64,000 nucleotides of DNA, taken from Desmonostoc geniculatum HA4340-LM1. GTDB lineage: Bacteria > Cyanobacteriota > Cyanobacteriia > Cyanobacteriales > Nostocaceae. Position numbers and translations under genes: made by a program. Of this stretch, positions 15,257 through 64,000 are shown one piece after another (the first letter of the stretch is position 1; each line of letters opens with the position of its first letter). Under the pieces are notes generated by a model, which was not told where the DNA came from, searched no databases, and saw nothing but the letters and a program-made list of their open reading frames with translations. The stretch covers positions 1-64,000 of the forward strand of contig JAHHHB010000001.1 of NCBI GenBank assembly GCA_019359545.1, given 5' to 3'.

Positions 15257-15260
15257 TATC

Positions 15261-18392: not shown

Positions 18393-18429
18393 AACACACG
18401 GTTCAGTTAAGGAGATTTATCTGTTAAGG

Positions 18430-18466: not shown

Positions 18467-18508
18467 AAGCTTAAGTGAATGGTATTGGTTCATAACAGTT
18501 ATGCGAGA

Positions 18509-23755: not shown

Positions 23756-23844
23756 GATCTTTCTTGCTATGAAGGTTGTCGGAGTTAAGAAGTAGAATGC
23801 TTCAGAGGGCTACTTAGGGATTACCAAGAAATAAATTATCCACT

Positions 23845-23905
23845 CTTGTGGGGTGGACATCTTGTCCGCCCTATGATCTGGGCGGACAGATGTCCACCCC
23901 ACAAG
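23845..23905. repeat. Long hairpin repeat in the ptxC-ptxD gap
   Basis: Arms at 23845-23871 and 23880-23905 are inverted complements over 26 bp with one unpaired base and an 8-nt loop (TATGATCT). The arm starts CTTGTGGGGTGGACATC. A related pair lies inside the element at 42639-42764. In the ptx mRNA it would make a very stable stem just before ptxD. Confidence 0.8.
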
Positions 23906-23927
23906 AAAATAGGCAAGTCTGAGTAGT

Positions 23928-24461: not shown

Positions 24462-24475
24462 TGCCCCAGTTTCCT

Positions 24476-24838: not shown

Positions 24839-24840
24839 TT

Positions 24841-24924
24841 TTTCCTAATTATTTAATTGAGAATTTGAAAAATAATTGCGTTTATTTCCTAACTATTTCA
24901 TTCAGTATTTGAAAAATAATTGCG
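24841..24924. repeat. 40-bp direct repeat in the ptxA-ptxB gap
   Basis: 24841-24880 and 24885-24924 both begin TTTCCTAA and end TTGAAAAATAATTGCG, with about five mismatches. The pair lies immediately upstream of ptxB. It may be a tandem duplication of a binding site or an old repeat; I see no hairpin. Confidence 0.7.
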
Positions 24925-25027
24925 ACAAATGAATTAACACCAACCCAGATGTAGAAACCAATTCCCAATCCAAAATCTTTTTTGAAAATGGATATAGAGG
25001 AGCCACTGAAATGACTACCGCTTCAAC

Positions 25028-26359: not shown

Positions 26360-26768
26360 AATAGATCGCACCTCCTTATATATCTTGAGTTTTGCATTTA
26401 CATTAGAATTCCTCAAACAATCCAGCTTACTAACTTCATCGTGCAATTGCCAATAGCACAGTTCAAAACCTTGATTGAGCTACCTAAACTTGTTATATCC
26501 CTTTCCAATCTGGATATTTTTAAAGTTAAAAACCGGAAACTTGAACAAAGATTTAAGCTCTTTTTCTAATTATCAATAGGTTAACTTTTTGCCATATTAC
26601 ATCTACTGAGCAAATTGCTTGTCAATACAGACCTGAAAAAGATGGAAATGTTGAATACTACAAAGCATAGACCAGCTTTAATGTTTATCGATTGTGTACT
26701 ATGCGTGCTGAAGGCCAAAGACACAAGCGATCGCCAGCTAGTCTGCAAATACAAAAAATGAACTGCAA
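26360..26768. promoter_or_regulatory. Region upstream of the ptx operon
   Basis: About 400 bp without a gene separates the phototaxis operon from the gvp genes on the same strand. It holds the strong Shine-Dalgarno AAGGAGG of ptxA (26371-26377) and, farther up, AT-rich sequence likely to contain the operon promoter. I could not assign -10 and -35 boxes with confidence. Confidence 0.45.
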
Positions 26769-39219: not shown

Positions 39220-42200
39220 ATGGTTAACAGTTCTGAAGGCAATGTAAATATTGGGTGTAATGTCCAAGGTATTTCTGAATACAACTTTTTTTCTGACAGT
39301 AAATTTGAGGACATTAATTGTCGTCCACTTAAAACAGACTCTCCCTACTTAGGACTAAAAACTTTTGAAATTAAAGATCGAGACAAATTTTTTGGTCGGG
39401 AGAAGTGGATTGCTAATCTGGGTGATCGCTTAAACCAAGATAATGTTCTCTTGCTTTTAGGAGCAGCGGACAGTGGCAAATCATCATTGATTCGGGCAGG
39501 TTTAATTCCTTATTTAGGAAATAATAACAATTCATTAATTAATATAAGTTTTCATCCAGATGATAATCCTTTTAAATCTCTTTATCAATGTCTTGCTTTT
39601 ACTTATGGGAAAAAATCGCCAATAGCGGATATTGCCAGAGAAATCAGAGAAAATACTCTAATTAAAATTGTCACATTCCTCAAACAAGATTATCAGTGCG
39701 TTCTGATTTTTATTGACCAATTTGAAGAACTGTTTACGAAAACTCAAAAGCCGGAACGTGAGAAATTTGTTGCTAGTCTCTTTCAACTGTTCCAGCAGCA
39801 GGATAGCTCTGTCAAAATTGTTTTAACAATGCGGTCTGATTTTTTGGATAAATTTAGTGAGTATCCCCAACTTGCGAAGATCCACGATCGCTATAGTTGT
39901 ATTCTCACTAGAATGATCGATGGAGAATTAAAATTAGCGATCGCTGAACCTGCTGCTAGAAATGGCGTTACCTTTGAACCAGGACTCGTTGAGCAAATTA
40001 TTGATGATTTTCACCAACAAGATGATTCTTTACCACTTCTGGCATACACCCTGAACGTATTGTGGGAAAGAGAAAATATTGCAAACCGGGTTCTGAAGAT
40101 AAAGACTTATCAAGAACTAAAAGAGCAAACGTTTGGTTATTTCAGCGAACAAGCTAATCAATTTATGAATGCTCGTGTCGGATGGTGCGATCGCCAGGAA
40201 CAAGAGATTCAAAAGTTAAACCTTGCACTGACTGAATTAAAACTGCGCGAGCAATCCGCCAGGGTTTTGAATTTACTTCCTGTCCAACCGCTAGAGGGTT
40301 TGGTGCTGGCAATTCAAACAATGGGTGAGAATCTAGAGAAATACCCAAACCAGCTTCTAGCTCCTGTTTTGGGAAGCTTAAAGCAAGCAATGAACACACC
40401 CACAGAGACGAATAGCTTGCGCGGACACGAGCAAGAGGTTAATTGTGTAGCCTTTAGTCCTGATGGCAAGTTTATTGCCAGTGGCAGTAGCGATTCTACG
40501 GTGTGCTTGTGGAATATCATGGGCAATCCTACTGCTAAATTTTTGTTGGGGCACGAGCAAGAGGTGAATTGTCTAGCCTTTAGTCGTGATGGCAAGTTTA
40601 TTGTTAGTGGCAGTATTGACGGAATTTTATGTTTATGGGATCTAGAAGGTAATCTCATTACTCAACCGTGGCAGGGACATGAGGAAGGAGTTATTGCCGT
40701 CGCCTTTAACTCAAATGGCGATTCTATTATCAGTGTTGGTTTTGACGGAACAGTGTGTTTGTGGGATTTAGAAAGTAACGCCATTACTCAACCTTGGCGC
40801 GGACATAAGGAAGGAGTTATTTCCGTCGCCTTTAGTCCAAATGGCAATTCCATTATCAGTGTTGGTTTTGACGGAACGGTGTGTTTGTGGGATTTACAAG
40901 GTAACACCATCACTCAACCCTGGCACAAACATGAGGCAAAAATTATTTGCGCCGCCTTTAGCCCCGATCGCAAGTTTATTGTCAGTGGTAGTAGTGATTC
41001 TACAGTGCGGTTGTGGGACATCCAAGGTAATCCTATCGGTCAACCTTGGCGCGGACATGAAGGAAGTGTAAATTCTGTAGCGTTTAGCCCTGATGGCAAG
41101 TTTATTATTAGTGGTAGCAGCGATCGCACAATCCGCTTGTGGAATATCAATGGCAACCCCGTAACTCAACCTTGGCGGGGACATGAAGGACAGGTTAATT
41201 CCCTAGCCTTTAGCCCTGATGGCAAGCTGATTGTCAGTGGTGGCGATCGCACTGTGCGTTTGTGGGAGCTACATCAAATACTACAAGATCGAGTCATCGG
41301 GCGATCGCAGCGCAAATATGAGAATTGGGTTAATTCTGTCAGCTTTAGCCCTGATGGTCAGTGGATTGTCAGTGCCAGCAATGATTCCACAGTGCGCTTA
41401 TGGGATAGCAACGGCAACCCCATTGGTGAACCTTGGCGCGGACATGAAAAAGAAGTTAATTCTGTCAGCTTTAGCCCTGATGGTCAGTGGATTGTCAGTG
41501 CCAGCAATGATTCCACAGTGCGCTTATGGGATATTCACGGCAACCCCATTGGTCAACCTTGGCGCGGACATGAAAAAGAAGTTAATTCTGTTGCCTTTAG
41601 CCCTGATGGTCAGTGGATTGTCAGTGCCAGCAATGATTCCACAGTGCGGTTGTGGGATAGCAACGGCAACCCCATTGGTCAACCTTGGCGCGGACATGAA
41701 AAAGAAGTTAATTCTGTGGCCTTTAGCCCTGATGGTCAGTGGATTGTCAGTGCCAGCAATGATTCCACAGTGCGGTTGTGGGATAGCAACGGCAACCCCA
41801 TTGGTCAACCTTGGCGCGGACATGAAAAAGAAGTTAATTCTGTGGCCTTTAGCCCTGATGGTCAGTGGATTGTCAGTGCCAGCAATGATTCCACAGTGCG
41901 GTTGTGGGATAGCAACGGCAACCCCATTGGTCAACCTTGGCGCGGACATGAAAAAGAAGTTAATTCTGTGGCCTTTAGCCCTGATGGTCAGTGGATTGTC
42001 AGTGCCAGCAATGATTCCACAGTGCGCTTGTGGGATATTCACGGCAACCCCATTGGTAGACCTTGGCGCGGGCATGAGTATTGGGTAAATTCCGCAGCTT
42101 TTAGCCCTGATGGTAAACTGATTGCCAGTGGTAGTCTTGATGGAACAGTCCGCTTGTGGCACTGTGGGTGGCAAGAATGGTTGCAAGTTTGCTGCAACAG

Positions 42201-42450
42201 GTTACATTATCATCCCCTCTTTCAAAATCCTGAAAATGGCAGTGATGTAGAAATTGCCCACCAAACTTGTCAAAAATATGTATGGAATCCACAATGCCCT
42301 AAACAGTTGAACAACCAAGGTGAGCTAAAAGAGAAAACTTTTTCAGCAGCTTTGGAGGACTTTAACCAAGCAGTTCAACTTAATTTCACATCACACTGGA
42401 AACATCGCCTTGCTTGGCAATCAGTACCTACAGAGAACCAATTGCACTAA
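39220..42450 (+). CDS. STAND NTPase with 14 WD40 repeats (nSTAND1-WD40)
   Basis: 1076 aa. A short N-terminus (1-40) is followed by SPYLGLKTFEIKDRDKFFGRE, the usual entry to nSTAND1, Walker A GAADSGKSS (81-89), Walker B LIFIDQFEEL (about 160-170), and a STAND helical part to about 400. Then come 14 WD40 repeats (about 404-990) of 41-42 residues, enough for two seven-bladed propellers; repeats 8-13 are nearly identical. Such proteins are sensors that oligomerise on ligand binding, and many act in defence or cell-death pathways. There is no obvious effector domain, so a small partner is expected. AAGGAG lies 5 nt before the ATG. Confidence 0.88.
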   Translation: MVNSSEGNVNIGCNVQGISEYNFFSDSKFEDINCRPLKTDSPYLGLKTFEIKDRDKFFGREKWIANLGDRLNQDNVLLLLGAADSGKSSLIRAGLIPYLGNNNNSLINISFHPDDNPFKSLYQCLAFTYGKKSPIADIAREIRENTLIKIVTFLKQDYQCVLIFIDQFEELFTKTQKPEREKFVASLFQLFQQQDSSVKIVLTMRSDFLDKFSEYPQLAKIHDRYSCILTRMIDGELKLAIAEPAARNGVTFEPGLVEQIIDDFHQQDDSLPLLAYTLNVLWERENIANRVLKIKTYQELKEQTFGYFSEQANQFMNARVGWCDRQEQEIQKLNLALTELKLREQSARVLNLLPVQPLEGLVLAIQTMGENLEKYPNQLLAPVLGSLKQAMNTPTETNSLRGHEQEVNCVAFSPDGKFIASGSSDSTVCLWNIMGNPTAKFLLGHEQEVNCLAFSRDGKFIVSGSIDGILCLWDLEGNLITQPWQGHEEGVIAVAFNSNGDSIISVGFDGTVCLWDLESNAITQPWRGHKEGVISVAFSPNGNSIISVGFDGTVCLWDLQGNTITQPWHKHEAKIICAAFSPDRKFIVSGSSDSTVRLWDIQGNPIGQPWRGHEGSVNSVAFSPDGKFIISGSSDRTIRLWNINGNPVTQPWRGHEGQVNSLAFSPDGKLIVSGGDRTVRLWELHQILQDRVIGRSQRKYENWVNSVSFSPDGQWIVSASNDSTVRLWDSNGNPIGEPWRGHEKEVNSVSFSPDGQWIVSASNDSTVRLWDIHGNPIGQPWRGHEKEVNSVAFSPDGQWIVSASNDSTVRLWDSNGNPIGQPWRGHEKEVNSVAFSPDGQWIVSASNDSTVRLWDSNGNPIGQPWRGHEKEVNSVAFSPDGQWIVSASNDSTVRLWDSNGNPIGQPWRGHEKEVNSVAFSPDGQWIVSASNDSTVRLWDIHGNPIGRPWRGHEYWVNSAAFSPDGKLIASGSLDGTVRLWHCGWQEWLQVCCNRLHYHPLFQNPENGSDVEIAHQTCQKYVWNPQCPKQLNNQGELKEKTFSAALEDFNQAVQLNFTSHWKHRLAWQSVPTENQLH
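41326..42081 (+). repeat. Six tandem 126-bp WD40-coding repeats
   Basis: Units start at about 41326, 41452, 41578, 41704, 41830 and 41956, each exactly 126 bp. They are almost identical at DNA level, including silent positions. Differences are mainly GATAGCAAC against GATATTCAC (Ser-Asn or Ile-His) and a few codons in the first unit. The outer repeats (before 41326 and after 42082) are much more diverged. Confidence 0.92.
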
Positions 42451-43609: not shown

Positions 43610-45916
43610 TTATCCTTTCACACACATAACTTGCTTGAGCGTTGCTACGACTTCAACCAAATCCGCTTGATTTGCCATCACTTGTTCTATCGGTTTATAT
43701 GCACCAGGAATTTCATCCAAAACACCAGTATCTTTACGGCATTCTACCCCTTGAGTTTGCTCAATCAAATCATCAAGTGTATAGATATTTTTTGCCTTAT
43801 TTCTAGACAATAACCGACCAGCACCGTGAGAGCAAGAACAAAAACTGTGGGCATTACCTTTGCCTTTAACAATGAAAGATTTTGCCCCCATTGAACCAGG
43901 AATAATGCCATAATCTTCTGTTTTTGCTCGGACTGCACCTTTACGAGTAACGTACACATCCTCGTCAAAATGCACTTCTTTTTCAGCATAATTGTGATGA
44001 CAATTCACCTGCAATAAAGGTTTAGTCGCCTTTCCACCTACGAGATGCTTTTCGACTATGTGCTTAAAACGCGCCATCATCACATCACGGTTGACACGCG
44101 CATACTCTTGTGCCCACTGCAAATCGTGCCAGTATGCTTGAAATTCCGGTGTACCAGCGACAAAATGAGCCAAATCAGGGTCAGGTAATTTATTACCTGC
44201 CATCTTCGCTAATTCCTTGGCTGTGTTAATGTGACACTGAGCTAGATTATTGCCAATATTGCGCGAACCAGAATGCAGCATTAACCAAACTTGATTCTCT
44301 GCATCGAGGCATACTTCAATAAAATGATTCCCTCCACCCAGAGAACCCATTTGTTTCATCGCTTTGCCTTGCAGATCTTGGACACCGCGATGCAAGTCTT
44401 TAAATTCATTCCATTTTTGCCAGTTGGTAACAGATTTTTCAACGTCTTTGTTTTCGTTGAATCCTGTAGGAATTGCTGCTTCAATATCCAAGCGAATTTT
44501 TTTGAGTTTACCTTCTAATTGTTGAGCAGTAAATGGCGTTTTCATTGCCATCATGCCACAGTTGTGAACGAAGACACCTGCTTTCAAAGCAAAGTTGTGA
44601 TATTCAGGTACTGTCAGGCAATAAACATCTTGTGTATAGTCTAAAAACACAACGGCTACAACTTTGTGATTACACTGATGTTCTTTTTTCCGATGATTGT
44701 GTAAACCAATTGGAGTCTTGACTTGTGCATTACAAATATCATAGCCCGGATTTCTCACCACATCTCTCAAAACCTTGTGCTCTTGAGCAGGGGTGCTCTT
44801 GAGCAGAGGAGAGTTCAATGTGCCAAGTTCAATCCCCTCTGCCCCTCTGCCCCTCTGCCCCTCTGCCCCTCTGCATTTCAAACTTGTGAGAAATGCGGGA
44901 TAGGTATAGTACCTGTTAGCAATTTCTTGAGATTTCGCTCTACCCTTATCACTTTGGTTGTACGTCACTAAATAATGCTTACCACGCTCACCATTACCAG
45001 CAACCGCTTGTCTAAAGTGTTCTGACTGTTGCTGCATATAATTCCGGATATGTTGAGTTCCTCTAGCAGCATAGTACTCATATCCTTCTGGTGTTGCTGC
45101 TTTTCTAGCAAGTGCCGCTAGTCGTTTCTTTTCAAACTGTGGAGATTGCCAGTGTTGGTTATGTTCCACTAAGCTACGATGATATGCAGAATGGTCGCGA
45201 TCGCGCATGAATTTTAAATTCTCAGGCCGGTTATCTGATTCATTAAAATTTTGATGATGAATAACTGTTCTTTGCCCTTCAAATTTGGCAACCTTTGCCA
45301 GCAAACCCGATCTAGCAATAATCCAATGTGCTTTTTGCCATCTACCTGAGTGGGGTTGAGCGATTAAGGTATAACCATCTTTGTCAGTTTTTGAGTAGAA
45401 CGGCATTAAGGATGTTCCAGATTGAAGATGTTGTGCTTCCTCATAGTTTCCATCCCGCAGCATAAATTGGTGATCGGGGGTGCAGATAATTTCTTCACCA
45501 TTGTCTAGAATCACTTTTAAAAGAGGGGCATTACGTCTAGTTAACCTTGCTTTTGCCTTAGCTGCTACCACTTTTCCAGTGGAAGTGCAAGAGTAAACTA
45601 TAAACTCTTCATTAGATTCAGCTAAATCCTTGATGGAATATAATTTACCATCGACTAGAGGAATAAGAGTATCGCCGACAAAGCAGCCAATATCCACTCC
45701 GATCGCAGCAGGTATAATTGCTTCTTTGGTGGCTATTACAGAACCGACTAAAGCACCTTTACCTAAGTGGACATCTGGCATCAAGGCTACGTGCTTAAAT
45801 ACAAATGGCAGGGATGCCACATTCTTTGCCATCTTGGTTTCTTCTGGTCCCAAAGGGTGATTCGCCCAAGATAAAACGGGTGCTGGTGTGGTAATTTCTA
45901 ACTTTTCGTAGGGCAT
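43610..45916 (-). CDS. rtcB: RNA ligase RtcB containing an intein
   Basis: 768 aa precursor. The host is RtcB, the GTP- and Mn-dependent ligase that joins 2',3'-cyclic phosphate (or 3'-phosphate) to 5'-OH RNA ends; visible are LMPDVHLGKGALVGSVIAT, GVDIG then CGMMAMKT, GSLGGGNHFIEV and HGAGRLLSR. An intein of 375 residues (78-452) is inserted before the conserved Cys of GVDIGCG. Removing it leaves 393 aa, a plausible short RtcB. Without splicing the metal-site Cys would be displaced, so splicing should be needed for activity. The gene is single, with a 158-bp gap to cruF. Confidence 0.95.
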   Translation of the reverse strand: MPYEKLEITTPAPVLSWANHPLGPEETKMAKNVASLPFVFKHVALMPDVHLGKGALVGSVIATKEAIIPAAIGVDIGCFVGDTLIPLVDGKLYSIKDLAESNEEFIVYSCTSTGKVVAAKAKARLTRRNAPLLKVILDNGEEIICTPDHQFMLRDGNYEEAQHLQSGTSLMPFYSKTDKDGYTLIAQPHSGRWQKAHWIIARSGLLAKVAKFEGQRTVIHHQNFNESDNRPENLKFMRDRDHSAYHRSLVEHNQHWQSPQFEKKRLAALARKAATPEGYEYYAARGTQHIRNYMQQQSEHFRQAVAGNGERGKHYLVTYNQSDKGRAKSQEIANRYYTYPAFLTSLKCRGAEGQRGRGAEGIELGTLNSPLLKSTPAQEHKVLRDVVRNPGYDICNAQVKTPIGLHNHRKKEHQCNHKVVAVVFLDYTQDVYCLTVPEYHNFALKAGVFVHNCGMMAMKTPFTAQQLEGKLKKIRLDIEAAIPTGFNENKDVEKSVTNWQKWNEFKDLHRGVQDLQGKAMKQMGSLGGGNHFIEVCLDAENQVWLMLHSGSRNIGNNLAQCHINTAKELAKMAGNKLPDPDLAHFVAGTPEFQAYWHDLQWAQEYARVNRDVMMARFKHIVEKHLVGGKATKPLLQVNCHHNYAEKEVHFDEDVYVTRKGAVRAKTEDYGIIPGSMGAKSFIVKGKGNAHSFCSCSHGAGRLLSRNKAKNIYTLDDLIEQTQGVECRKDTGVLDEIPGAYKPIEQVMANQADLVEVVATLKQVMCVKG
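44561..45685 (-). mobile_element. Intein with HNH endonuclease region inside rtcB
   Basis: 375 codons. Block A starts with Cys (CFVGDTLIPLVDGK), block B is ICTPDHQFML with the conserved T and H, and the end is YCLTVPEYHNFALKAGVFVHN followed by Cys, so the splicing residues Cys1, penultimate His and terminal Asn, and Cys+1 are all present. An HNH-like segment (VIHHQNFNESDNRPENLKFM) points to a homing endonuclease. A low-complexity insert (GAEGQRGRGAEG) lies at 44826-44878. Inteins at this RtcB Cys are known in other organisms, for example Pyrococcus. Confidence 0.9.
44826..44878. repeat. CCCCTCTG repeat inside the intein
   Basis: At least five CCCCTCTG-type units in frame within the intein. 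They code for the GAEGQRGRGAEG stretch on the minus strand. Confidence 0.8.
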
Positions 45917-52929: not shown

Positions 52930-53346
52930 ATGTCCGGTAATACCAATTTTGTTATGAACTTGCATAGAATGAGAAAGCTAAAACCTTTGTGCTGGATTTT
53001 ACTCATTTTATCGTTATTTTACGACCCGATTTCGCCATATTTCACACAGCCTACTACTGAGTGGAGTATTTTCCGTCTCAATCCGAATCTCTTAGACCCG
53101 ACGAAATGCCAAGAGGTTGTCACAGTCCAAGGAAAGTGTGTTGATGTGAAACCTTTTGCATTAGGAGCCAAAATCTTTTGGGGAATTGTAGTTCCTTGTG
53201 GAGTATTGATTATCTTTGTTTTAGGACATGAAACATGGCGGCGGATTTGTCCGTTATCTTTTCTATCACAAATTCCGAGAGCGTTAGGTAAGCAACGTCA
53301 ACGCAAAATCACTAATCCTCGCACAGGAGCAGTGCGATCTGGCTAG
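52930..53346 (+). pseudogene. N-terminal remnant of a large membrane redox/FHA protein
   Basis: 138 aa. It begins like a NapH-type membrane ferredoxin protein (RMRKLKPLCWILLILSLFYD, then GHETWRRICPLSFLSQIPRALG) with two membrane helices. It runs into a stop right after TNPRTGAVR, where homologues as I recall them go on for many hundred residues with 4Fe-4S, cyclic-nucleotide and FHA domains. From about 53330 the downstream sequence is FHA-like in another frame. I infer an internal deletion. The original start is probably Met9 (52954). Confidence 0.6.
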
Positions 53347-53557: not shown

Positions 53558-54784
53558 GTGAGTCAGCAAGCAAGTCAGCCGACTCGTTCGCCTAGTGAGT
53601 ATATGCCGATCGCACTTGTGCCGCCAGAACAAATCAGTCGGTGGACAAAAGGTGATTTAATGGTTCGTTGTGTGGCAATAATTGACGAAACTGATGATGT
53701 GAAGACGTTTCGCTTTGCTGCTGACGCACCAATATTATTTACCTACCAACCTGGTCAGTTTATGACGCTGAACCTGGAAATCAACGGTAAACCAGTCAAA
53801 CGCTCTTACTCAATCTCTTCAACTCCTTCACGACCCCACACTTTAGAAATTACAGTCAAGCGCGTTCCTGCACCACCAGATGTTTTGGATGTACCGCCTG
53901 GTTTAGTTTCCAATTGGTTGCACGACAATCTCAGAGTCGGTAGTGAAATCAAAGTCAGCGGCCCTTTGGGAAAATTCACTTGTTTTGCCAACCCCAGTGA
54001 AAAACTATTGTTTATTTCTGCTGGGAGTGGTATTACACCGATGATGTCTATGTCACGATGGATGATGGACACCGCTGCTGATTGCGATATTGTCTTTTTC
54101 CATTGCGCCCGCAGTCCTCGTGATATTATTTATCGCCAAGAACTAGAGTTAATATCTAGCCGCCAGCCTAAGTTTCGTTTAGCGATCGCCATTACCAGAC
54201 CCGAAGCAGGTCAAGCATGGTATGGCTTTATGGGCAGACTCAACGAACAAATGCTGTATGCGATCGCTCCTGATTTTTGGCAGCGCACAGTATATGTCTG
54301 CGGGCCGAGTCCTTTTATGCAAGGGGTAAAAACTATGCTAGAGCAAATCGGATTCCCCATGCAAAACTACTATGAAGAAAGTTTTGGCGGGGCGAAAAAG
54401 GCAAAACTCCAGCCATCGGTTCCGGCTCAAGTAATCACTGAGCAAGTTACCAAAGTAACAACAGTAGTACCAAAGCCAGTAATTTCCACCCCAGTTACTC
54501 TTCCAGTTAAAACAACAGGCTCTTTTACTCTAGTGTTTTCCAAGTCTGGCAAAGAAATTACCTGCACTGGAGAAGATCCCATTCTAGAGTTAGCTGAACA
54601 AGAAGGAGTGGCGATCGACAGTAGTTGTCGCAGTGGAGTTTGCGGTAGTTGTAAAACGCGGAAGCTTCAAGGAGAGGTGAAGTATTTAGAAGAACCTGAT
54701 GCTCTCGATGAAAGCGAACAGGAGGAAGGCTATATTCTTACTTGTATTGCTCACCCTAGAGAGCGAGTTGTGATCGATGCTTAG
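53558..54784 (+). CDS. FAD/NAD(P) oxidoreductase with C-terminal [2Fe-2S] ferredoxin domain
   Basis: 408 aa. It has an FNR-type FAD domain (about 25-140; RSYSISSTP), an NAD(P) domain (about 140-260; LLFISAGSGITPMMSM and VYVCGPSPFMQGV), and a ferredoxin domain (about 320-408) with CRSGVCGSCK and LTCIAHP. This is the layout of the HCP reductase Hcr. It is probably the C-terminal end of a once larger gene, because the frame is continuous with FHA-like sequence upstream. The catalytic part looks complete; translation may start at GTG 53558 or ATG 53603. Confidence 0.82.
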   Translation: MSQQASQPTRSPSEYMPIALVPPEQISRWTKGDLMVRCVAIIDETDDVKTFRFAADAPILFTYQPGQFMTLNLEINGKPVKRSYSISSTPSRPHTLEITVKRVPAPPDVLDVPPGLVSNWLHDNLRVGSEIKVSGPLGKFTCFANPSEKLLFISAGSGITPMMSMSRWMMDTAADCDIVFFHCARSPRDIIYRQELELISSRQPKFRLAIAITRPEAGQAWYGFMGRLNEQMLYAIAPDFWQRTVYVCGPSPFMQGVKTMLEQIGFPMQNYYEESFGGAKKAKLQPSVPAQVITEQVTKVTTVVPKPVISTPVTLPVKTTGSFTLVFSKSGKEITCTGEDPILELAEQEGVAIDSSCRSGVCGSCKTRKLQGEVKYLEEPDALDESEQEEGYILTCIAHPRERVVIDA

Positions 54785-55065: not shown

Positions 55066-55629
55066 ATGAATTCACAAAACCAACAAAACTGGCAATCACA
55101 GCAACTAGCCACAGAAGAGATACCATACATCAGTAGTAATTTTAGTGAAAGTGTTGCTAGGGTGAATAAATTTGTTCTAGCAGAGTTTGAGCGGGAAATT
55201 ATCCAAAAGCAATTGTACTACCATACAAAAGATCATTTGATGGCTGTACAGCAACGCGCTCAATTAATTTTTCAAGTCGTTCGCCCTTATTTGTCAGCAG
55301 ATGTAGAGACAATTAAGAAGATGGAATTGTTACTCGATGTTTGTGCGATCGCTCATGACTTAGTACAAATCTTTATACCCCACCAACCGGACACATCTAG
55401 ACGACGAGAAGCGGGTGTCAGTGAAAATGCAACTATAGAAATCCTATTGAATTATATACAAGTTTTAAATCAACAAATATCAGCATCTTATCCAAAAAGT
55501 ACGGCTCTTTTCACAGATGCAGATTTGAAAATCATTCAAGAAGCGATCGCCGCTACCATTTGCGATTATGATGCAACAGAGCAAGCCATTTATCAACCCT
55601 CTCTTTATAATCACTGGAGTTTAGACTAA
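55066..55629 (+). CDS. HD-domain protein, apparently truncated
   Basis: 187 aa. The His and His-Asp of an HD phosphohydrolase are visible in LYYHTKDHLMAVQQRAQL and VCAIAHDLVQ, followed by IIQEAIAATICDYDATEQAI. The frame ends shortly after, at the left arm of a 16-bp inverted repeat (55613-55628); the last residues WSLD come from that arm. I infer that the C-terminal part was lost. It stands at the head of the second chemosensory operon. Confidence 0.65.
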   Translation: MNSQNQQNWQSQQLATEEIPYISSNFSESVARVNKFVLAEFEREIIQKQLYYHTKDHLMAVQQRAQLIFQVVRPYLSADVETIKKMELLLDVCAIAHDLVQIFIPHQPDTSRRREAGVSENATIEILLNYIQVLNQQISASYPKSTALFTDADLKIIQEAIAATICDYDATEQAIYQPSLYNHWSLD

Positions 55630-55764
55630 TTTTACCCATTAAACCGCCAAATCCTTATCCAGACAGGCTTTGATAATTTATAGGCTTGATATAATTCCGA
55701 AGTCTAAAATACTTACCACACAAGGGTTGTAGCTTTAAAAAAAGAATTTAGTCTAAACTCCAGT
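55613..55764. repeat. 152-bp inverted-repeat element at a gene junction
   Basis: Perfect 16-bp arms ACTGGAGTTTAGACTA (55613-55628) and its complement (55749-55764). It lies exactly where HD similarity ends and CheW similarity (SPDYVAGLFNYRG) begins. Confidence 0.7.
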
Positions 55765-56142
55765 CCAGATTATGTAGCTGGTTTATTTAATTACCGGGGT
55801 AAAATTATACCAGTAATAGACTTGTGTCATTTGATTGGTGGTACATCTAGCCGCTTATGTCTAAGTACCCGCATTATTATGGTAAGCTACCCTAATCAGA
55901 ATTCTAGACAACAATATTTAGGATTAATAGCAGAAAAAATTACAGAAACATTAAATAAATCAGAAACAGATTTTATAGATTCCGGTATTCGTGTTAAAGA
56001 AGCACCATATTTCGGAGGGATGTTGATGGATGAGAAAGGCATAATTCAGCGCATTCATTTAGAGCAACTGTTTGCTGATACAGAAAATACCTATTTATTG
56101 ACAGCGGGAGAAGGTTATATAAATGAGTTGGGCAGAAATTGA
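55765..56142 (+). pseudogene. CheW-like protein lacking its N-terminus
   Basis: The frame reads SPDYVAGLFNYRGKIIPVID, LCHLIGG, then the rest of a CheW domain to EGYINELGRN. The first 30-40 residues of a CheW are missing. The frame is open back to 55708 but has no ATG; the first possible start is TTG 55822, which already removes the conserved YVAGLFNYRG. Residues RVVALKK encoded inside the inverted-repeat element could be CheW-derived, but spacing is off. It overlaps cheR by 20 bp. Confidence 0.7.
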
Positions 56143-57397
56143 GAACTTATTGCGCCAAAAAATTGGGATTGATGCAAATATTATTAGTTATAAGCTTGTT
56201 AAAGCTGTTGAAAATCGTCGTTCTATCTGCGGTATCAATAATCTAAACGATTATTTAAAGGTTTTACAAAATTCCAAGCAAGAATTTGATGAACTAGTTG
56301 AGTTGATAGTTGTTCCAGAAACTTGGTTTTTTCGAGATGGACAGCCTTATAAAGCGATCGCTAGCTATGTCCGTTCTCAATGGTTAAATAAATCTCACAT
56401 CGGCAAACTCCGCTTGTTAAGTGTTCCCTGTTCCACTGGAGAAGAACCTTATTCTCTAGCTATGACATTATTGGATTTAGGTTTACTGCCAAATCAGTTT
56501 AATATTGATGCAGTTGATATTAGTAAAAAGTCTTTAGATAAAGCCAAAAAAGGAATTTACGGCCGTCACTCTTTTAGAGGTGATAATTTAGAATTTCAAA
56601 CCCGCTACTTTCATCCTATAGGCAAGGAATATCAAATATGCGATCGCGTCAAGAATACTGTTAATTTCAGTCAGGGTAATTTGCTCGATCCGCAACTATT
56701 CTTACATAGAAAAGCTTATGATATTATTCTCTGTCGTAACGTCTTAATTTATTTTGATTCATTAGCCAGAGGAATCACCTTAAAAAATTTAAATTCTTTA
56801 TTAAAAACCGGAGGTATAATCTTAGTTGGCGCATCAGAAACCGGAGAACTAGCTAATTTAGACTGGGATATAATTCGTTTAAATAGTGTAATGGTGGGAC
56901 GGAAAAAAATCACCAATACAGAGCATATTAATTTCAATTATTCATCTGTAAACGATCGAAATTCAAAGGAGTATACAAAACATCTAAACCAACAAATTAA
57001 TTTCATAAAAAGACCTCTAGAATTACTAGATAATTCGCAAATTAACAACAATAAAATTATAGAAAATCAATTATCAAGACCAATAGAAAAATCTAATTCT
57101 AATCTAGACACAATTCGTAAATTAGCTGATGAAGGTAATTTAAACGAAGCTATATCACAATGTCAAAACTATTTACAAGCAAATTCTACCAATGCAGAAG
57201 TGTATGTTTTACTAGGTCAAGTTTATCAAGCCCAAAGACTAGAATTACAAGCGGAAGAATGCTTTAAAAAAGCGATTTACCTTGACCCCAAAAACTCTCA
57301 AGCTTTACTACATTTAACTTTACTAAAAGAACAAGGAGGAGACATAAGCAAAGCGAATATTTTACGCCAAAGATTACAACGTTTACAAAACTCATGA
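56123..57397 (+). CDS. cheR: CheR methyltransferase with C-terminal TPR
   Basis: 424 aa. N-terminal helical domain, then the SAM-binding domain (about 60-265): VVPETWFFRDGQPY, LRLLSVPCSTGEEPYSLAMT, NIDAVDISKKSLDKA, and YDIILCRNVLIYFD. The C-terminus (about 335-420) has two TPR-like repeats (AISQCQNYLQANSTNAEVYV, LEECF-like QAEECFKKAIYLDP). CheR methylates MCP glutamates. Its motifs look intact, unlike those of its neighbours. It is the second gene of the operon, overlapping the CheW fragment. Confidence 0.9.
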   Translation: MSWAEIENLLRQKIGIDANIISYKLVKAVENRRSICGINNLNDYLKVLQNSKQEFDELVELIVVPETWFFRDGQPYKAIASYVRSQWLNKSHIGKLRLLSVPCSTGEEPYSLAMTLLDLGLLPNQFNIDAVDISKKSLDKAKKGIYGRHSFRGDNLEFQTRYFHPIGKEYQICDRVKNTVNFSQGNLLDPQLFLHRKAYDIILCRNVLIYFDSLARGITLKNLNSLLKTGGIILVGASETGELANLDWDIIRLNSVMVGRKKITNTEHINFNYSSVNDRNSKEYTKHLNQQINFIKRPLELLDNSQINNNKIIENQLSRPIEKSNSNLDTIRKLADEGNLNEAISQCQNYLQANSTNAEVYVLLGQVYQAQRLELQAEECFKKAIYLDPKNSQALLHLTLLKEQGGDISKANILRQRLQRLQNS

Positions 57398-57690
57398 ACT
57401 AGTAAAAATCGTTTATAGCGCAATACAGTTCAGAATGAGCAACAAAACCCTCATGTAGAGACGCGATGAATCGCGTCTTCAAGACCAATATTCTACGCCA
57501 ATAACCCTTAACCCAACCGTCTTGTTTTATAGCGCTTCTGGTTTGAGTCCAATACAGACCTAACTATACCTACTAGCGTTGGGGAATAAAATTCAAATTC
57601 TATCTCTTAAAAGGAGAAACGTCAGAGTTTACTGCATCTCAACGATAATCCCTATATTGTCCAATTTTCAACCAAACACCAGGGTATTTT

Positions 57691-59091
57691 ATGCTCAAAA
57701 ATTTAAGCTTACAAAAGCGTTTAATCGTCGGATTTTTATTTATTGGGTTAATGGTATTAGTAGTGGGAATTGTCGGATGGATTGGTTCTACCCGAATGAA
57801 TGAAGACATTAAAACATTCTCAGATAAAACATTTCCTAGCACAGTTAATTTATGGAAAGTCAAAGAAGCACAGACTAGAGTACAAGCATCTGAGAACACC
57901 TTACTCTCACCAGTAGTAGGTACTGAATACAGAGAAAAAGAAATAACCAAAATTAAAACAGCTTTGCAGGATATGAAAAAAGGATGGGAGTCATACGAAA
58001 AGTTGTCTCGTGACTCTGAAGAAGACAGGATTTATCAAAAAGTTTTGAGTGCATGGGATAAATGGTCAGCCGTTAGCGAACAGTTTCTTCGGTTGAATGA
58101 CCAGTATATGAGCTTTGGGTTAACTAACCCTAGAAAAGTGCAGCAGCTATTATTACAACAGGGAAAAGCTAACACCCCTGAATTCACGAAAACCGAAATG
58201 GCTATTAAAGTAGATGTGGAAATGGTCGATTTTGCAATTGCTCAATTAGAACCCAGGTTCGATACAGCAGCTGAGGCAATATTTGAACTACTTACATATA
58301 ATGCTAATTTAGCAGATAAAGCCCAAAGAAAAGCCAATTTTGACGCAAAACAAACTAATTTATTAATATTAATCTGCTTAATAATTTGTCCTATAATTGC
58401 CATTGTCTTTGGTTTATACTTTAGTAAGCCCATTGTTCAAAAGCTGAGTGAATTAGTAAAAATTTCTCAGTTTATAGCTAATAGTAATTCTACTGGACAG
58501 ATGGAATTATTAGATAGGCAAGATGAAATCGATAAACTACAAACTGCTTTTTCTACAGTCGCATCTAAGATGGGTGAGTTGGTGAATACTGCCCAGAAAA
58601 TATCCAGTGGAGATTTAACAATACAAATTCAGCCTTCAGATAGTCAAGACGAAATTGGCAAACTACAAAATGCCTTTTACACGATGAACAAGAATTTAAA
58701 TGCCTTGATTCGTCGCGTTCAACAGTCAGGTGTACAAATTACCACTTCGAGTACACAAATTGCCGCTTCTGGAAAACAATTAGAAGCTACAGTCACAGAA
58801 CAATTAGCTTCTACCAATGAAGTTGCTGCTACTGCTCAAGAAATTGCTGCTACTTCTAGAAATTTAGTCAATATGATGAAGCAAGTGGCTGAATTAACTA
58901 AAATAACTGCTACTGGTGCAAGTGAAAGTCGTGATGAATTACAAGAGATGCAAAACACCATGCAGCAATTAACAGAGGCTTCTCAGCAAACAGTTGATGC
59001 TTTACGAGAGACTAATGATGCTTTAGAACAATTAGAAGAGGCCGCACAATCATTAAGAGAAGAAATTTCCCGTTTTCAGGTTAAAAATTGA
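57691..59091 (+). CDS. Membrane MCP without its signalling hairpin
   Basis: 466 aa. A first membrane helix (about 10-32; LIVGFLFIGLMVLVVGIVGW), a four-helix periplasmic sensor part (about 33-220), a second helix (about 226-246), HAMP-like repeats (about 247-345), then the descending MCP helix with AATAQEIAATSRNLVNMMKQ. It then passes straight into the ascending helix (SQQTVDALRETNDALEQLEE). The central 120-140 residues with the [11 protein letters not shown]-type tip that binds CheA/CheW are absent. The deletion is in frame near 58970-58985. It should be unable to signal normally. Confidence 0.82.
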   Translation: MLKNLSLQKRLIVGFLFIGLMVLVVGIVGWIGSTRMNEDIKTFSDKTFPSTVNLWKVKEAQTRVQASENTLLSPVVGTEYREKEITKIKTALQDMKKGWESYEKLSRDSEEDRIYQKVLSAWDKWSAVSEQFLRLNDQYMSFGLTNPRKVQQLLLQQGKANTPEFTKTEMAIKVDVEMVDFAIAQLEPRFDTAAEAIFELLTYNANLADKAQRKANFDAKQTNLLILICLIICPIIAIVFGLYFSKPIVQKLSELVKISQFIANSNSTGQMELLDRQDEIDKLQTAFSTVASKMGELVNTAQKISSGDLTIQIQPSDSQDEIGKLQNAFYTMNKNLNALIRRVQQSGVQITTSSTQIAASGKQLEATVTEQLASTNEVAATAQEIAATSRNLVNMMKQVAELTKITATGASESRDELQEMQNTMQQLTEASQQTVDALRETNDALEQLEEAAQSLREEISRFQVKN

Positions 59092-59111
59092 GCATAAAAA
59101 AGGTGATGCTC

Positions 59112-59861
59112 ATGGAAGAAGATAACAATATTAATATAGAACAGCCTATTTTCAATGATTGCTGGAATAAAATTGGTGTAATGGGCGATCGCTCTTGTAC
59201 CGAGTTAAAAACTGTCATCCATTGTTATGAATGTCTAGTGTATGCCGCAGTTGGTGATAGTTTACTAGAAAGAGAAGCACCAACAGATTATCTTGAAGAC
59301 TGGCTTCACATTCTTGAAGAAACATCTGATACACTTGTTTCCGATAGTAATGAACCAATTATTCGCACTACTGAAGCTGTTTCTACTATCATATTTAGGC
59401 TCGAAAATGAGAGATTAGCCTTACCAGTCCGAATGCTACAAGAAGTTAACCATCCTTGCGTTATTCAACCCCTACCACATCGCAGCAACCACTTATTTTT
59501 AGGTTTAGTCAACATTCGGGGAGAAATTTTACTTTGTGCTTCTCTCAAACATCTTTTACATATCCAACCCACTCAGGAGAATGTAAACAAGAAAGCAAAT
59601 AAAAATGATCGACCGACAGTTGAAGTAACTAATCTTCAACGGATGATTGTAGCAGGACAAGGAGAAGATAAATGGGTATTTCCTGTAGATGAAGTGCATG
59701 GAATTTTCCGCTTTCATCTCAATGAATTGCAAGATGCACCCGTCGTCATCACTAAATCTGAACAAGCTTATACCAAAGGAATCATCTACTGGGAAGGGAA
59801 GCAAGTAAATTATCTTGATTCTGACTTATTGTTTTATACCCTCAATCATAAAATTTTGTAA
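59112..59861 (+). CDS. CheW-like protein
   Basis: About 249 aa. An acidic N-terminal extension (1-85) precedes a CheW domain (about 90-245): STIIFRLENERLALPVRMLQ, NHLFLGLVNIRGEILLCASL, and WVFPVDEVHGIFRFHLNELQ. It follows the MCP at once. ATG 59112 has AAGG 8 nt upstream; the frame opens at TTG 59088 inside the MCP stop region. No lesion is obvious here. Confidence 0.82.
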   Translation: MEEDNNINIEQPIFNDCWNKIGVMGDRSCTELKTVIHCYECLVYAAVGDSLLEREAPTDYLEDWLHILEETSDTLVSDSNEPIIRTTEAVSTIIFRLENERLALPVRMLQEVNHPCVIQPLPHRSNHLFLGLVNIRGEILLCASLKHLLHIQPTQENVNKKANKNDRPTVEVTNLQRMIVAGQGEDKWVFPVDEVHGIFRFHLNELQDAPVVITKSEQAYTKGIIYWEGKQVNYLDSDLLFYTLNHKIL

Positions 59862-59997
59862 TTATCATTATATCTCTTGAAAAAGTTCTTCTTTACGCCT
59901 AAGAAAGCGGGAACACATAAAGGCGAATGTGTGAAACAAAAATTATTTATGCAAAAGACTCCAGGAGTTGCACTCACAAGCAACAATGAAAATTTAT

Positions 59998-60072
59998 TTC
60001 CCCTACTCCCTACTCCTTACTCCCTACTCCTTACTCCCTACTCCCTATTCCCTACTCCCTACTCCCTATTTT
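59998..60072. repeat. CCCTACT tandem repeats before cheA
   Basis: About ten units of TCCCTACT/TCCTTACT type in 75 bp, between the CheW and CheA genes. Pyrimidine-rich, with no coding role. Confidence 0.8.
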
Positions 60073-60131
60073 CAAGGCAGGTTTATTGGTAAAATTCCCC
60101 TCTATTTCCCAGTCACTATTCCTGGATACTT

Positions 60132-62150
60132 ATGAGCGATTACACCATTTTTGAACTGTTTCGTCAGGAATTAGATACTAATGTTGCTACCCTGAAACAA
60201 TGTCTTTCTAGATTACAAAATCAGCCGTTTTCAATAAATGAAAATGAGCGAGCAATACAAGCTGCTCATTCTCTCTGGGGAATTACCAGCATTCTAGAGA
60301 TGGAAGCAGCTGCCAATTTGTTGCATCTGATGAAAGATTGCTTCATGGCTGTTCAGAAACAAAGTATTAGCTTGAAGGAAGAAGAAATTGATACCTTACT
60401 TCATGCTAGTGATTTACTCTTAAACATGAGTAAAACTGCTGAAGATCAGTTAGATACTTGGATGACAAACCACGCTTGGGATTGGAATACAACTCAGAAA
60501 ACTATTGCTAATTTATTGATTAAAGAACAGGTGATAGGTGATAAAGAAAAGGAAAGAGAACAGGGAGCAGGGAGCAACGGGGAAAGTCTCTCTCCTCTGC
60601 ACCATGATGCACCCGTCGCATCTCCTCCTCTTGTGGAACTGTCACCCATAAATGGTGATGGTAGTTCGATGATGGATTTGTTTAGATTGGAGGCAGAAGC
60701 GCAAGTTAACATCTTGAATAATGGATTATTAGCTATAGAAAACAAGCCTCAATCAGCACAGGAATTAGAAGCTTTAATGCGGGCGGCTCATTCTATCAAA
60801 GGTGCTGCGAGAATTGTTGGCTTAGATGGAGTGGTAGAATTAGCGCATGTGATGGAAGATTGTTTTGTATCTGCTCAAAGCAAAACCATTACTTTAACTC
60901 CCGACGATGTGGACGTGCTTTTGCAAGGGGTAGACTTACTGCAAAGTATTAGTCAACTGAATGATGCAGAATTACCAGGTTGGTTAGGACAACATCAAGC
61001 CGATTTTACAAATATTCGTGATGATGTGGCGGCAATTTTACAACCGGGGGGTAGAAAACAAAAAGCACAAACTGATTTTGATGCGGATGCACATATACTC
61101 GATCAGTCGCCAATCCCCAGCCCCCAATCCCCAGCCCCCAATCCCCAGCCCCCAATCCCCAGCCCCCAATCCCCAGCCCCCAACCCCCAGCCCCCAATCC
61201 CCAGTCCCCAATCCCCAGTCATTACTCATGGGGTAGAAAATACTACAAAAAATCAAGATCGTGTGGTGCGGGTAAGTGCGGATAATTTGAATCGGATTAT
61301 GGGTTTAGCGGGAGAATCATTGATAGAGGCTAACTGGCTACAGCCTTTTGCAGATTCGATGATGTCCCTAAAGTCACGGATGTTGGATATTTCCCGCAGT
61401 TTGGAACAGTTGCAGGAGTCCCTCGATCAGAATTTATATGAGCAAGAGGGTAAAGAATATTTAGTGCAAGCGCGACAACAAAAACAGGAGTGTCTTGATT
61501 ATATTGGCGATCGCTTGAATGAGTTAGAGTTATATGTGCGTCGTACTGCTAGTTTATCAGATCGTCTTTATCGAGAAGTCATTAATTCTCACATGAGACC
61601 TTTTGAAGATGGTTTACAAGGTTTTCCGCGCATGATTCGGGACTTGGCACGCAAGTTAAATAAACAAGTTAAGTTAGAAATTATTGGTAAATCTATACCT
61701 GTTGACCGTGATATTCTCACAAAATTAGAAGCACCTTTAACCCATATTCTCAGAAACGCTGTAGATCATGGCATTGAACTTTCAGAAGAACGCATTGCCT
61801 CTGGTAAATCTTCTGAAGGTACAATTCGTTTAGAAGCCTTTCATCGTGGGGGAATGTTAGCAATTACTATTAGCGATGATGGTAGAGGTATAAATTGTGA
61901 AAAGTTACGCCAGAAAATCATCAGTAAAAACCTAGCAACACCAGACATGGTAGCTCAACTCTCAGATGTAGAGTTGATGGAATTTCTCTTTTTACCTGGC
62001 TTCTCCACAGTTAAACAGGTAACGGAAATTTCTGGGCGGGGTGTAGGTTTGGATATTGCCAAAAGTATGGCACTAGAAGTAGGGGGAACGGTACGTGCAA
62101 CTTCCCCTCACTTTGTCGGTAGTCAGAACACTATTAGTAGAAATTTCTGA
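60132..62150 (+). pseudogene. cheA: CheA kinase, N-terminal part, frameshifted in the ATPase domain
   Basis: 672 codons. HPt-like domain 1 has His46 in AAHSLWGITS (no Lys-Gly), and HPt domain 2 has His220 in AAHSIKGAARIVG (intact). A repeat-derived Pro/Ser/Gln linker (about 326-358) is followed by dimerisation helices and HATPase with LRNAVDHGIELSEER, DDGRGIN and GRGVGLDIAKSMALEVGGTV. After VRATSP the frame goes out and ends at TISRNF. The missing piece is the G2-like end (usually GQGTTFHFQLPL). The CheW-receiver part continues in another frame from about 62095. About 40 bp are lost, so the kinase is broken. Confidence 0.82.
61105..61221 (+). repeat. CCCCAGCCCCCAATC tandem repeat in the cheA linker
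   Basis: Units of about 15 bp (CCCCAGCCCCCAAT) repeat in frame and encode Pro-Ser-Pro-Gln-Ser/Asn-Pro-Gln-Pro-Pro stretches between the HPt part and the dimerisation part. Confidence 0.85.
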
Positions 62151-62955
62151 GAAACCCTATGCTATTCCTTTAGCGAGAATTGACCAAATTGTAAATTTGG
62201 AGAGAGCAGAAATTACTGATGTAGAAAATCGCCAATATTTCATCATGAATAAGCAAAATATCGGTTTAATTGCTGCCAACCAAGTTTTAGAATTACCAGC
62301 AGCAAGCCAGCAAAATACTACAGTTTCTATTGTTGTAATTAGCGATCAAAATAGTACCTACGGCTTAGTAGTAGATAAATTTTTAGGTGAGAGAGATTTG
62401 GTTGTGAGACCCTTAGATCCCCGTTTAGGTAAAGTTCCTGATATTAGTGCTACTGCTTTATTAGGAGATGGTTCACCCATTTTAATAATTGATGTTTCCG
62501 ATATGGTACGTTCTATGGATACCATCCTCAAAGCTGGTAATTTATCTAAAGTGATGATGCCAGATGAATTAGAAAGTATAACTCAACGCCGAAAAATTTT
62601 AGTAGTTGATGACTCTATTACTGTGAGAGAAATGGAACGCAAACTCTTAGAAAACCGTGGTTATCAAGTAGATACTGCTGTTAATGGTGTGGAAGGTTGG
62701 AATGCGGTACGTACTAACGAGTATGATTTAGTAATTAGTGATATTGATATGCCCCGCATGAACGGAATCGAATTAGTCAAGCAAATTAAAAATAGTCCTC
62801 GCTTAAATTCTTTACCTATAATTATTATTTCTTATCGCGATCGAGAAGAAGATAAAATTCAAGGTTTAGAAGCGGGTGCTGATTATTATCTAACTAAGAG
62901 TAGTTTTCATGATGATAGTTTAGTCAATGCGGTAATTGATTTAATTGGGAATTAG
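62095..62955 (+). pseudogene. CheA C-terminal part (CheW-like and receiver domains), shifted frame
   Basis: 286 codons, continuous with the end of the ATPase domain: QLPLTLSVVRTLLVEISEKP, YAIPLARIDQIVNLERAEI and ILIIDVSDMVRSM are the CheW-like domain; ILVVDDSITVREMERKLLEN, LVISDIDMPRMNG (Asp) and YYLTKSSF (Lys) are the receiver. It overlaps the first part by 56 bp in another frame. A GTG at 62095 could start translation, but more likely this is the stranded 3' half of cheA. Confidence 0.8.
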
Positions 62956-63032
62956 TCATCGCTCGTTGCTTATTGGGTTATTTGCCCAGTCCTTAGTCCC
63001 TAGTTTTCAATCCCCAGTCTCCAATTACCTAT

Positions 63033-64000
63033 ATGAAAATTGCTATTGTTAATGATACAAGTATCGCTGTAAATATACTACGACGTATTGTCCAAAATGT
63101 ACCAGATTATGAAGTAATTTGGACTGCTAAAAATGGTGAAGAAGCTATTAGCAAATGTCAAGAAAATCTTCCTGATTTAATCTTAATGGGTTTGCTGATG
63201 CCTGTGATGGATGGGGTAGAAGCAACTCAGCACATTATGAAATATACCCCTGCTGCGATTCTCATGGTCACTGGAAGTGCAGAAGATAATATTTCTAAAG
63301 TTTATGCAGCAATGGGTTATGGTGCTTTAGATGTTATTGAAATTCCGGTGATAGATACAGATAATTTTTCCGAGATAACTGATAAATTACTCGGTAAAAT
63401 AGCGAGAATTGCCAAATTAATTAAAAATAGTTCTACACCCAGCAAAATCAAGTTAGAAGGTCAAAATAAACTATTTACATCCATGCAATTAGTAGCAATT
63501 GGCGCTTCTACTGGTGGGCCAAAAGCACTAGCTACGATTTTATCAAAACTACCTACTAATTTTAATGCTGCTATTGCTATTATTCAGCACGTTGATGGCC
63601 ATTTTTCTAGCGGTTTTGCCGATTGGTTAAACCAACAAACACCTTTACCTGTAAGATTAGCAGTAGTAGGCGATCGCTTACAAAAAGGCACAATTTTAGT
63701 AGCAGGAACTAACGATCATCTCTGTTTAAAACCAGATTTAACTTTAGCTTATACTAAAAACCCTATTGATTACCCTTATCGTCCTTCTGTAGATGTATTT
63801 TTTCACAGTCTTGCTCAACATTGGGAAAAAAAAGGAACGGCAATTTTACTAACAGGTATGGGTAAAGATGGAGCAGAAGGATTAAATGCTTATTATTATC
63901 GTCAAGGAAACTTTGAACAGGCAAAAGTTTATTTGTCAAAAGTTTTAAGTATCAATTCTGCTGACAAAACTGCTGATTTATATCTGAGTCGAGTGAATTA
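63033..64000 (+). CDS. cheB: CheB methylesterase with mutated receiver, fused to a TPR tail, cut by the window edge
   Basis: At least 322 codons. Receiver domain (1-125) with [10 protein letters not shown], but the phospho-acceptor position reads [13 protein letters not shown], Gly53 instead of Asp. The methylesterase domain (about 150-288) keeps the catalytic Ser in [11 protein letters not shown], His in [13 protein letters not shown] and Asp in [12 protein letters not shown]. After GAEGL the last 40-50 residues of CheB are replaced by [20 protein letters not shown] and following, a TPR as found at the end of CHASE2/cyclase-type proteins. I infer a deletion that fused two genes. No stop codon is reached before 64000. 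Confidence 0.78.

Follow-up and report, generated by a model that had tools for sequence, protein, structure and literature searches.

A chemosensory and redox gene cassette, probably dead or dying, in Desmonostoc geniculatum HA4340-LM1

The window analyzed here, the first 64,000 nucleotides of contig JAHHHB010000001.1 from Desmonostoc geniculatum HA4340-LM1, contains toward its right end a ten-gene cassette that reads polyferredoxin-FHA-cNBD, FHA-FNR, HD-like, CheW, CheR-TPR, MCP, CheW, CheA-REC, CheB, and REC-cyclase (Table 1). The cassette sits between fdx and an SMR gene, which are 11.2 kb apart here; by our reading, fdx and SMR are neighbors (within 3.5 kb) in 30 of the 53 genomes of the genus. 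A ptx-like operon lies elsewhere in the window, at 10069–26446. The ptx and hmp operons of Nostoc punctiforme are chemotaxis-like; these resemble the cassette in their MCP/CheW/CheA phosphorelays and differ in being separate operons. Nostoc sp. FACHB-973 (G013), a close relative in which the operon is open throughout, was used as the reference. It carries a full-length ortholog for each damaged che gene, and two other strains (G014 and G002) carry full-length polyferredoxin and FNR genes.

Table 1. Features of the cassette in the window; full lengths of che and HD-like genes are those in G013.
Feature	Position	Strand	Remarks
Polyferredoxin-FHA-cNBD stump, 138-aa ORF	52930..53346	+	Homology stops at ~53337
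Deletion junction, about 3,093 bp	53336..53337	.	From codon 135 of polyferredoxin to codon 65 of FNR on the G014 sequence
FNR-type reductase with 2Fe-2S domain, 408-aa ORF	53558..54784	+	546 aa long in G013; lacks the FHA domain here
HD-like gene, 187-aa ORF of 330	55066..55629	+	Homology to residue 183, then element sequence
MITE-like element, 150 bp	55614..55763	.	16-bp perfect terminal inverted repeats; replaces 597 bp of G013
First CheW, 106-aa ORF of 160	55822..56142	+	N-terminal part lost
CheR with TPR, 424 aa	56123..57397	+	Intact; 95% identical to G013
MCP, 466 of 620 aa	57691..59091	+	Pfam MCPsignal match lost
Second CheW, 257 aa	59088..59861	+	Intact; full length against G013
CheA first part, 672 aa	60132..62150	+	Frame broken by deletion
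CheA second part, 286-aa ORF	62095..62955	+	CheW-like and receiver domains
CheB residues 1–286 fused to REC-cyclase tail	63033..64000	+	343-aa ORF runs past the window to contig position 64064

Comparison with G013 and G014 resolves the damage into five separate events, all within 10.6 kb and together affecting eight of the ten genes. Four are deletions, of about 3,093, 462, 38, and 1,543 bp; the fifth is a MITE-like element that replaces 597 bp. Shortened ORFs are concentrated in this block (7 of 9 matched ORFs, vs. 2 of 30 elsewhere in the first 90 kb of the contig; Fisher p = 7.5e-5); the two outside are a WD40 array whose number of repeats differs and a 52-aa piece of an ORF present in G014. 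Most compared neighbors are intact, including all compared ORFs of the ptx-like operon. The 13 other operons that could be read in the genus all lack the shapes seen here, so the original prediction is not refuted by orthologs of identical shape. Past 67 kb, the compared stretches of two relatives yielded just ~1.1 kb of homology, and a plasmid search with the region returned a single 104-base match. These results agree with the original prediction of a probably recent, multigene loss through several separate deletions, with the ptx system left intact. Its statement that nearly every gene was hit corresponds to the count of eight in ten; its restriction of decay to the chemosensory operon is not upheld, because the ~3.09-kb deletion at 53336, ahead of 55066, hits the polyferredoxin and FNR genes. 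Deletions were observed as described, but transposons could not be set aside, as one lesion holds a MITE-like element.

The full-length polyferredoxin comprises 1,095 aa in G013, G014, and G002, and no shared repeat was found at the ends of the 3,093-bp junction. Homology in the FNR frame begins at 53336, ahead of the start of the 408-aa ORF, and the remnant retains NAD, FAD, and 2Fe-2S domains. In G013, polyferredoxin and FNR are found on two contigs (C240 and C14) and are presumably adjacent. Short repeats occur at the left end of contig C14.

The HD-like and first CheW genes, both correctly described from the sequence as cut, flank the 150-bp element. Even the intact G013 HD-like protein scores below the Pfam HD cut-off (19.9 vs. 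22 bits). The element is short, bounded by terminal inverted repeats, and without a transposase, in the manner of MITEs. An identical second copy is present elsewhere in the genome, in a stretch with no ORF of at least 60 aa, and matches (E ≤ 1e-5; some partial) occur in 11 of 53 genomes of the genus, this strain counted. Bacterial MITEs, as portrayed in PMC10969869, are likewise short, carry terminal inverted repeats, and occur in several copies in related genomes; the window copy differs in having no flanking duplication. Among eight other copies inspected, five have a flanking duplication of 6–7 bp, two have one of 3 bp (one of these being a partial match), and one has none. The element may have inserted, and an adjacent deletion, or recombination with a second copy, would have removed the neighboring sequence. 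Stretches of G012 and G032 also have ends resembling those of the element.

CheR and the second CheW, predicted to be intact, are indeed full length, and CheR and TPR domain matches are found in the CheR of both the window and G013. The missing tip of the MCP and the frameshift in CheA were likewise borne out. The MCP has lost 462 bp, in frame, at 58963 between 13-bp repeats AGCAATTAACAGA; CheA, which is 938 aa long in G013, is split by the loss of 38 bp at 62097, again between repeats, here of 9 bp (CAACTTCCC). In G013, both of the segments deleted here are bordered exactly by these short direct repeats, and slippage or short-homology recombination may have removed them. The foreign tail reported for CheB stems from the 1,543-bp deletion at 63891, which leaves CheB residue 286 followed directly by residue 449 of the next gene, the REC-nucleotide cyclase, of which the last 56 residues remain; no shared repeat was found at the ends of this junction. 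A Gly at the CheB receiver site had also been read as a lesion. However, the full-length G013 CheB has the same Gly, with Asp in all 11 other readable CheBs of the genus; the substitution therefore predates the deletions and is ruled out as a product of decay.

Pooled dN/dS for the block remnants was 0.25, as compared with 0.15 for 16 flanking genes (Fisher p = 5.8e-5 on counts), in a comparison that sets different gene classes side by side, leaves out the first CheW, and measures one of the 16 flanking genes against G014 rather than G013. Against G013, dN/dS values for the two open genes were 0.33 (CheR) and 0.20 (second CheW). These low values suggest that the loss is recent; selection on the pathway would have lapsed only recently. 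Relaxed selection on the window branch was considered and rejected, as the codon changes found only in the window copies of FNR and HD showed no significant excess of nonsynonymous changes (nonsynonymous to synonymous, 16 to 14; in three other lineages, 28 to 35; p = 0.51). The absence of such a signal fits recency without proving it.

Features of ACF or Wsp-like pathways (two CheW, a hybrid CheA with receiver, CheB, and MCP) are present in G013, and the window has the same genes, mostly broken. In a published survey (PMC3447774), CheR-TPR pathways with such output architectures form an alternative cellular function class, and the outputs listed there include histidine kinase modules (about 40%) and mononucleotidyl cyclases. 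The ACF/Wsp-type pathways of that text resemble the cassette in CheR-TPR, two CheW, MCP, CheA with a receiver, CheB, and a multidomain response regulator; Wsp proper ends in REC-GGDEF (WspR), whereas the G013 operon ends in a REC-nucleotide cyclase and the window array is broken. By Pfam, the output is a REC-cyclase in G013, G046, G012, and G007 and REC-histidine kinase-like in all 8 other outputs of the genus that were scanned; a REC-GGDEF output, guessed from length in other genomes, was rejected by the same means. Judged from its domains, the intact cassette probably comprises a Wsp-like array that drives a nucleotide cyclase. MCP, CheW, and CheA would phosphorylate the receiver of the class III nucleotide cyclase, and CheR and CheB would set receptor methylation. 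More tentatively, the cyclase product might exert its effect via the cNBD that the adjacent polyferredoxin carries and via the FHA-FNR partner of that protein. Among the titles and abstract beginnings searched, none concerned a polyferredoxin-FHA-cNBD protein and none described a che-cyclase operon.

Taken from sequence comparison, the cassette in this strain appears to be dead or dying, having decayed by separate events, a reading to which we assign a probability of about 0.88. The two junctions between short direct repeats could instead have been produced during assembly or amplification, as joins that the organism does not contain. Such an artifact is highly improbable: the lesions cluster in one block inside a 215-kb contig, in the proportions given above; one of them holds a mobile element known from other genomes; and G014 (a closed-like genome) and G002 show independent partial loss of the same genes. 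It is also unlikely that the cassette has been remodeled rather than lost, with CheR, the second CheW, the CheA receiver fragment, and the shortened FNR kept for another role, such as modifying receptors of other chemosensory systems. Further CheW-domain systems are indeed present elsewhere in this genome, the reading frames of CheR and the second CheW remain open and their dN/dS is below 1, and the FNR remnant keeps its three domains; but the MCP signaling match is lost, CheA is split, and CheB is truncated, and a dN/dS below 1 against G013 is equally expected after very recent loss. Motility is among the roles of chemotaxis-like operons in cyanobacteria (some of them, such as ptx and hmp, serve it), and the original prediction took the cassette for an abandoned route of motility or pilus control. 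We found no evidence for this and regard it as rather improbable, since the gene content is of the CheR-TPR alternative-function type, the G013 output is a nucleotide cyclase with redox genes as neighbors, and no pilus or motility gene was noticed among the block ORFs.

Within the preferred reading of a decayed cassette, there is about an even chance that the polyferredoxin/FNR pair has nothing to do with the chemosensory operon beside it, the two decaying together only because the whole inserted block is dispensable. Outside the genus, 10 of 12 full-length polyferredoxin loci, some in short stretches, have no recognized che gene or cyclase beside them; in G046, which has a cyclase-type operon, polyferredoxin gave no match at E ≤ 1e-60; and the pair persists in G002 and G014, where the array is absent. 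Conversely, the first CheW is directly upstream of polyferredoxin in G012 and G007, MCP-CheW-CheA is directly upstream of polyferredoxin-FNR in G112 (from another family), and a single receptor cyclase replaces the chemosensory genes beside polyferredoxin-FNR-HD, at another site, in G002 and G014. The idea that polyferredoxin is tied to che genes or cyclases throughout the order was rejected (a che gene at 1 and a cyclase ORF at 1 of the 12 full-length loci); neither was recognized at 8 shorter-form loci, and the association is local only. A broader proposal, which we hold to be doubtful, is that of a portable signaling-to-redox module in which the cyclic nucleotide of the receiver cyclase would gate the membrane polyferredoxin and FHA-FNR; it would move as a block between sites, have an input exchangeable for a receptor cyclase (as in G002 and G014), and be repeatedly lost, with CheB damage a frequent step.

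Since an apparently dying chemosensory pathway is here seen beside a readable sister copy, its loss events (short-repeat deletions and a deletion bordering a small element) are directly legible. A nucleotide cyclase adjoining a redox pair with a cyclic-nucleotide-binding domain is, in addition, a predicted possible output for such pathways. The apparent exchange, in two related strains, of the whole array for one receptor cyclase constitutes a natural experiment on what the array contributes.

Querying the 53 genus genomes with the CheR protein, the Desmonostoc geniculatum assembly itself (G000; 7.36 Mb in 173 contigs, 99.87% complete, the window being C159:1-64000) included, returned full-length matches of at least 318 bits in 16. 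The nearest other CheR, that of Nostoc sp. FACHB-973 (G013; NZ_JACJSJ010000110), is 95% identical across all 424 residues, and ORF comparison and Pfam indicate that the G013 operon is open throughout. Lesions were mapped by aligning the window and its contig continuation to G013, with the polyferredoxin/FNR deletion measured on another relative, G014; eight of the ten genes of the window block are damaged. As compared with G013, Pfam matches to MCPsignal, FHA, cNBD, and cyclase domains are gone, and those to HATPase and CheB are shortened. The original prediction, a chemosensory operon decaying by small deletions at 55066..64000, is partly borne out: lesions b to d are deletions within that interval. 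Lesion a, also within it, is a replacement by a 150-bp element, which cuts off the HD frame after residue 183 and takes away the CheW start; lesion e precedes the interval.

Lesions of the block and corresponding or related features in relatives
Feature	Genome	Position	Size or change	Remark
Lesion a, HD-like/CheW	window	55613/55764	150-bp element in place of 597 bp	relative to G013
Lesion b, MCP	window	58963	462 bp missing	AGCAATTAACAGA at both ends in G013
Lesion c, CheA	window	62097	38 bp missing	CAACTTCCC at both ends
Lesion d, CheB and cyclase gene	window	63891	1,543 bp missing	no shared repeat at deletion ends, aligned to G013
Lesion e, polyferredoxin codon 135 to FNR codon 65	window	53336	~3,093 bp missing	full-length polyferredoxin 1,095 aa; no shared repeat at deletion ends, measured on G014
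FHA-FNR	G013		546 aa
HD-like	G013		330 aa	Pfam HD match under cut-off
CheW (first)	G013		160 aa
CheR-TPR	G013		424 aa
MCP	G013		620 aa
CheW (second)	G013		257 aa
CheA-REC	G013		938 aa
CheB	G013		337 aa
REC-cyclase	G013		504 aa
MCP	G033			stop
MCP-CheW2	G032	L043 5777-7456	in-frame fusion	MCPsignal match gone
CheB	G026, G021			stops, codons differ
MCP	G040			one of two broken or missing
dCache-HAMP-cyclase	G014	L050 7025-9760
dCache-HAMP-cyclase	G002	L139 4930-7455

Up to 90 kb into the contig, matches to G013/G014 ORFs (at least 100 aa, at least 85% identity) were compared for length, over stretches with fetched counterparts, which almost cease beyond ~67 kb; shortened ORFs make up 7/9 in the block versus 2/30 outside it (38.9 kb of ORFs; p = 7.5e-5). 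Outside the block, the shortened ORFs are a WD40 repeat array and a piece of 52 aa from an ORF that has 197 aa in G014. The WD40-repeat protein (39220-42450) carries near-identical tandem repeats, their number unlike that in G013. The decay of the inserted cassette is real. Two other chemosensory operons (G000:C1 ~18270-23200 and G000:C76:3399-5714; stretches L121 and L120) also encode proteins shorter than those of G013/G014 (1643 from 1859 aa; 771 from 941 aa), with in-frame losses at repeated domains, and a Uma2-like ORF of 254 aa in both relatives has just a 36-codon match; G000 therefore has further losses, none observed so dense as in the block. A short contig carries another CheW-domain match (G000:C152:9760-10128; L119), within a 641-aa frame, with no close counterpart among the compared G013/G014 stretches. 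A 768-aa ORF at 43610-45916 of the window resembles, by eye, an RtcB-type ligase split by an intein-like stretch.

Pooled dN/dS is 0.25 for eight block stretches (CheR and CheW2 included) as against 0.15 for sixteen genes flanking the block. In FNR and HD, the window has 16 nonsynonymous and 14 synonymous codon changes of its own, a ratio that does not differ from that in three further lineages (28 nonsynonymous, 35 synonymous; p = 0.51). These comparisons argue that selection was kept up through most of the divergence, so that the cassette was probably lost recently, as had been proposed.

The Gly in CheB, previously counted among the lesions, is no product of this decay, being present in the 337-aa CheB of G013 as well. 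The site is Asp in all 11 other readable genus CheBs, two of which have a stop elsewhere in the gene; the Gly thus predates the split of the window and G013. In Pseudomonas, the pathway is activated when the CheB-type WspF is lost, and by analogy the Gly may have activated the pathway here.

The element has 16-bp perfect terminal inverted repeats and a second, identical copy elsewhere in G000; it is matched, in some cases partially, in 11 of the 53 genus genomes, G000 included (E <= 1e-5). Among eight other copies inspected, five have flanking duplications of 6-7 bp, two of 3 bp (one a partial match), and one has none. No flanking duplication was found at the window copy. Either insertion followed by edge deletion or a recombination event involving two copies would account for this.

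Fourteen of the 16 operons are readable across the core genes, those of G035 and G019 being cut by contig ends. At least one core gene is broken or missing in seven of the 14, window included, though single stops may be sequencing errors. G011, one of the seven, yielded no CheB. The G032 fusion is a lesion of the kind seen in the window, but distinct from it. The other seven operons are those of G013 (CheB with Gly), G012, G007, G046, G048, G038, and G001.

Matches to fdx and the SMR gene, which flank the block, are 11.2 kb apart in the window contig with the block in between; in 30/53 genomes no more than 3.5 kb separates them (rows read by eye). The block of G014 sits at 8.58 Mb, whereas fdx and SMR adjoin each other at 6.96 Mb. 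In a further relative, G002, it is flanked on either side by transposase genes on an 807-kb contig, fdx and SMR adjoining each other on another contig; the block has therefore changed place. Both genomes retain polyferredoxin, FNR, and HD at full length; in G014 an IS-type transposase sets FNR apart from HD. The array persists as relics. Both genomes keep ~196-200 bp of MCP, stopping at one identical G013 base; in addition, G014 has 234 bp of CheR, and G002 has 59 bp around the start of CheW. Beside these, at the array's former place, follows in both a dCache-HAMP-cyclase of 733-734 aa. This array loss is separate from that in the window, and the cassette's input has apparently been swapped from array to receptor cyclase.

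No support was found for the proposal that a motility or pilus route had been given up; gene content agrees with the CheR-TPR/ACF kind of pathway, as described in PMC3447774. The output of the operon, by Pfam, is a REC-cyclase in four genomes (G013, G046, G012, and G007); in all eight others scanned it is a REC protein carrying a histidine-kinase ATPase domain. A redox module, in which the che genes and cyclase are linked to polyferredoxin/FNR, is possible. The odds are about even that the two gene sets are unrelated and merely adjoin: of 12 full-length polyferredoxin loci examined beyond the genus, taken from the best of 155 genomes with a match among 388 searched, 10 have neither a che gene nor a cyclase recognisable close by, and in G046 the cyclase operon occurs but polyferredoxin gave no match. 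However, CheW lies immediately upstream of polyferredoxin in G012 and G007, as does MCP-CheW-CheA, on the same strand, upstream of polyferredoxin and FHA-FNR in G112, from another family (L180 6537-17277); the receptor cyclase adjoins the polyferredoxin/FNR pair in G002 and G014; and in the window both sets decay jointly. FNR itself adjoins polyferredoxin in 10 of the 12 loci. In G276 (L178 5873-8240), the FNR adjoining a full-length polyferredoxin is split into three ORF pieces, possibly a pseudogene. FHA domains commonly bind phosphothreonine; two other genomes have Ser/Thr protein kinase genes close to the polyferredoxin/FNR pair (L182 2125-4251, L186 5296-6771).
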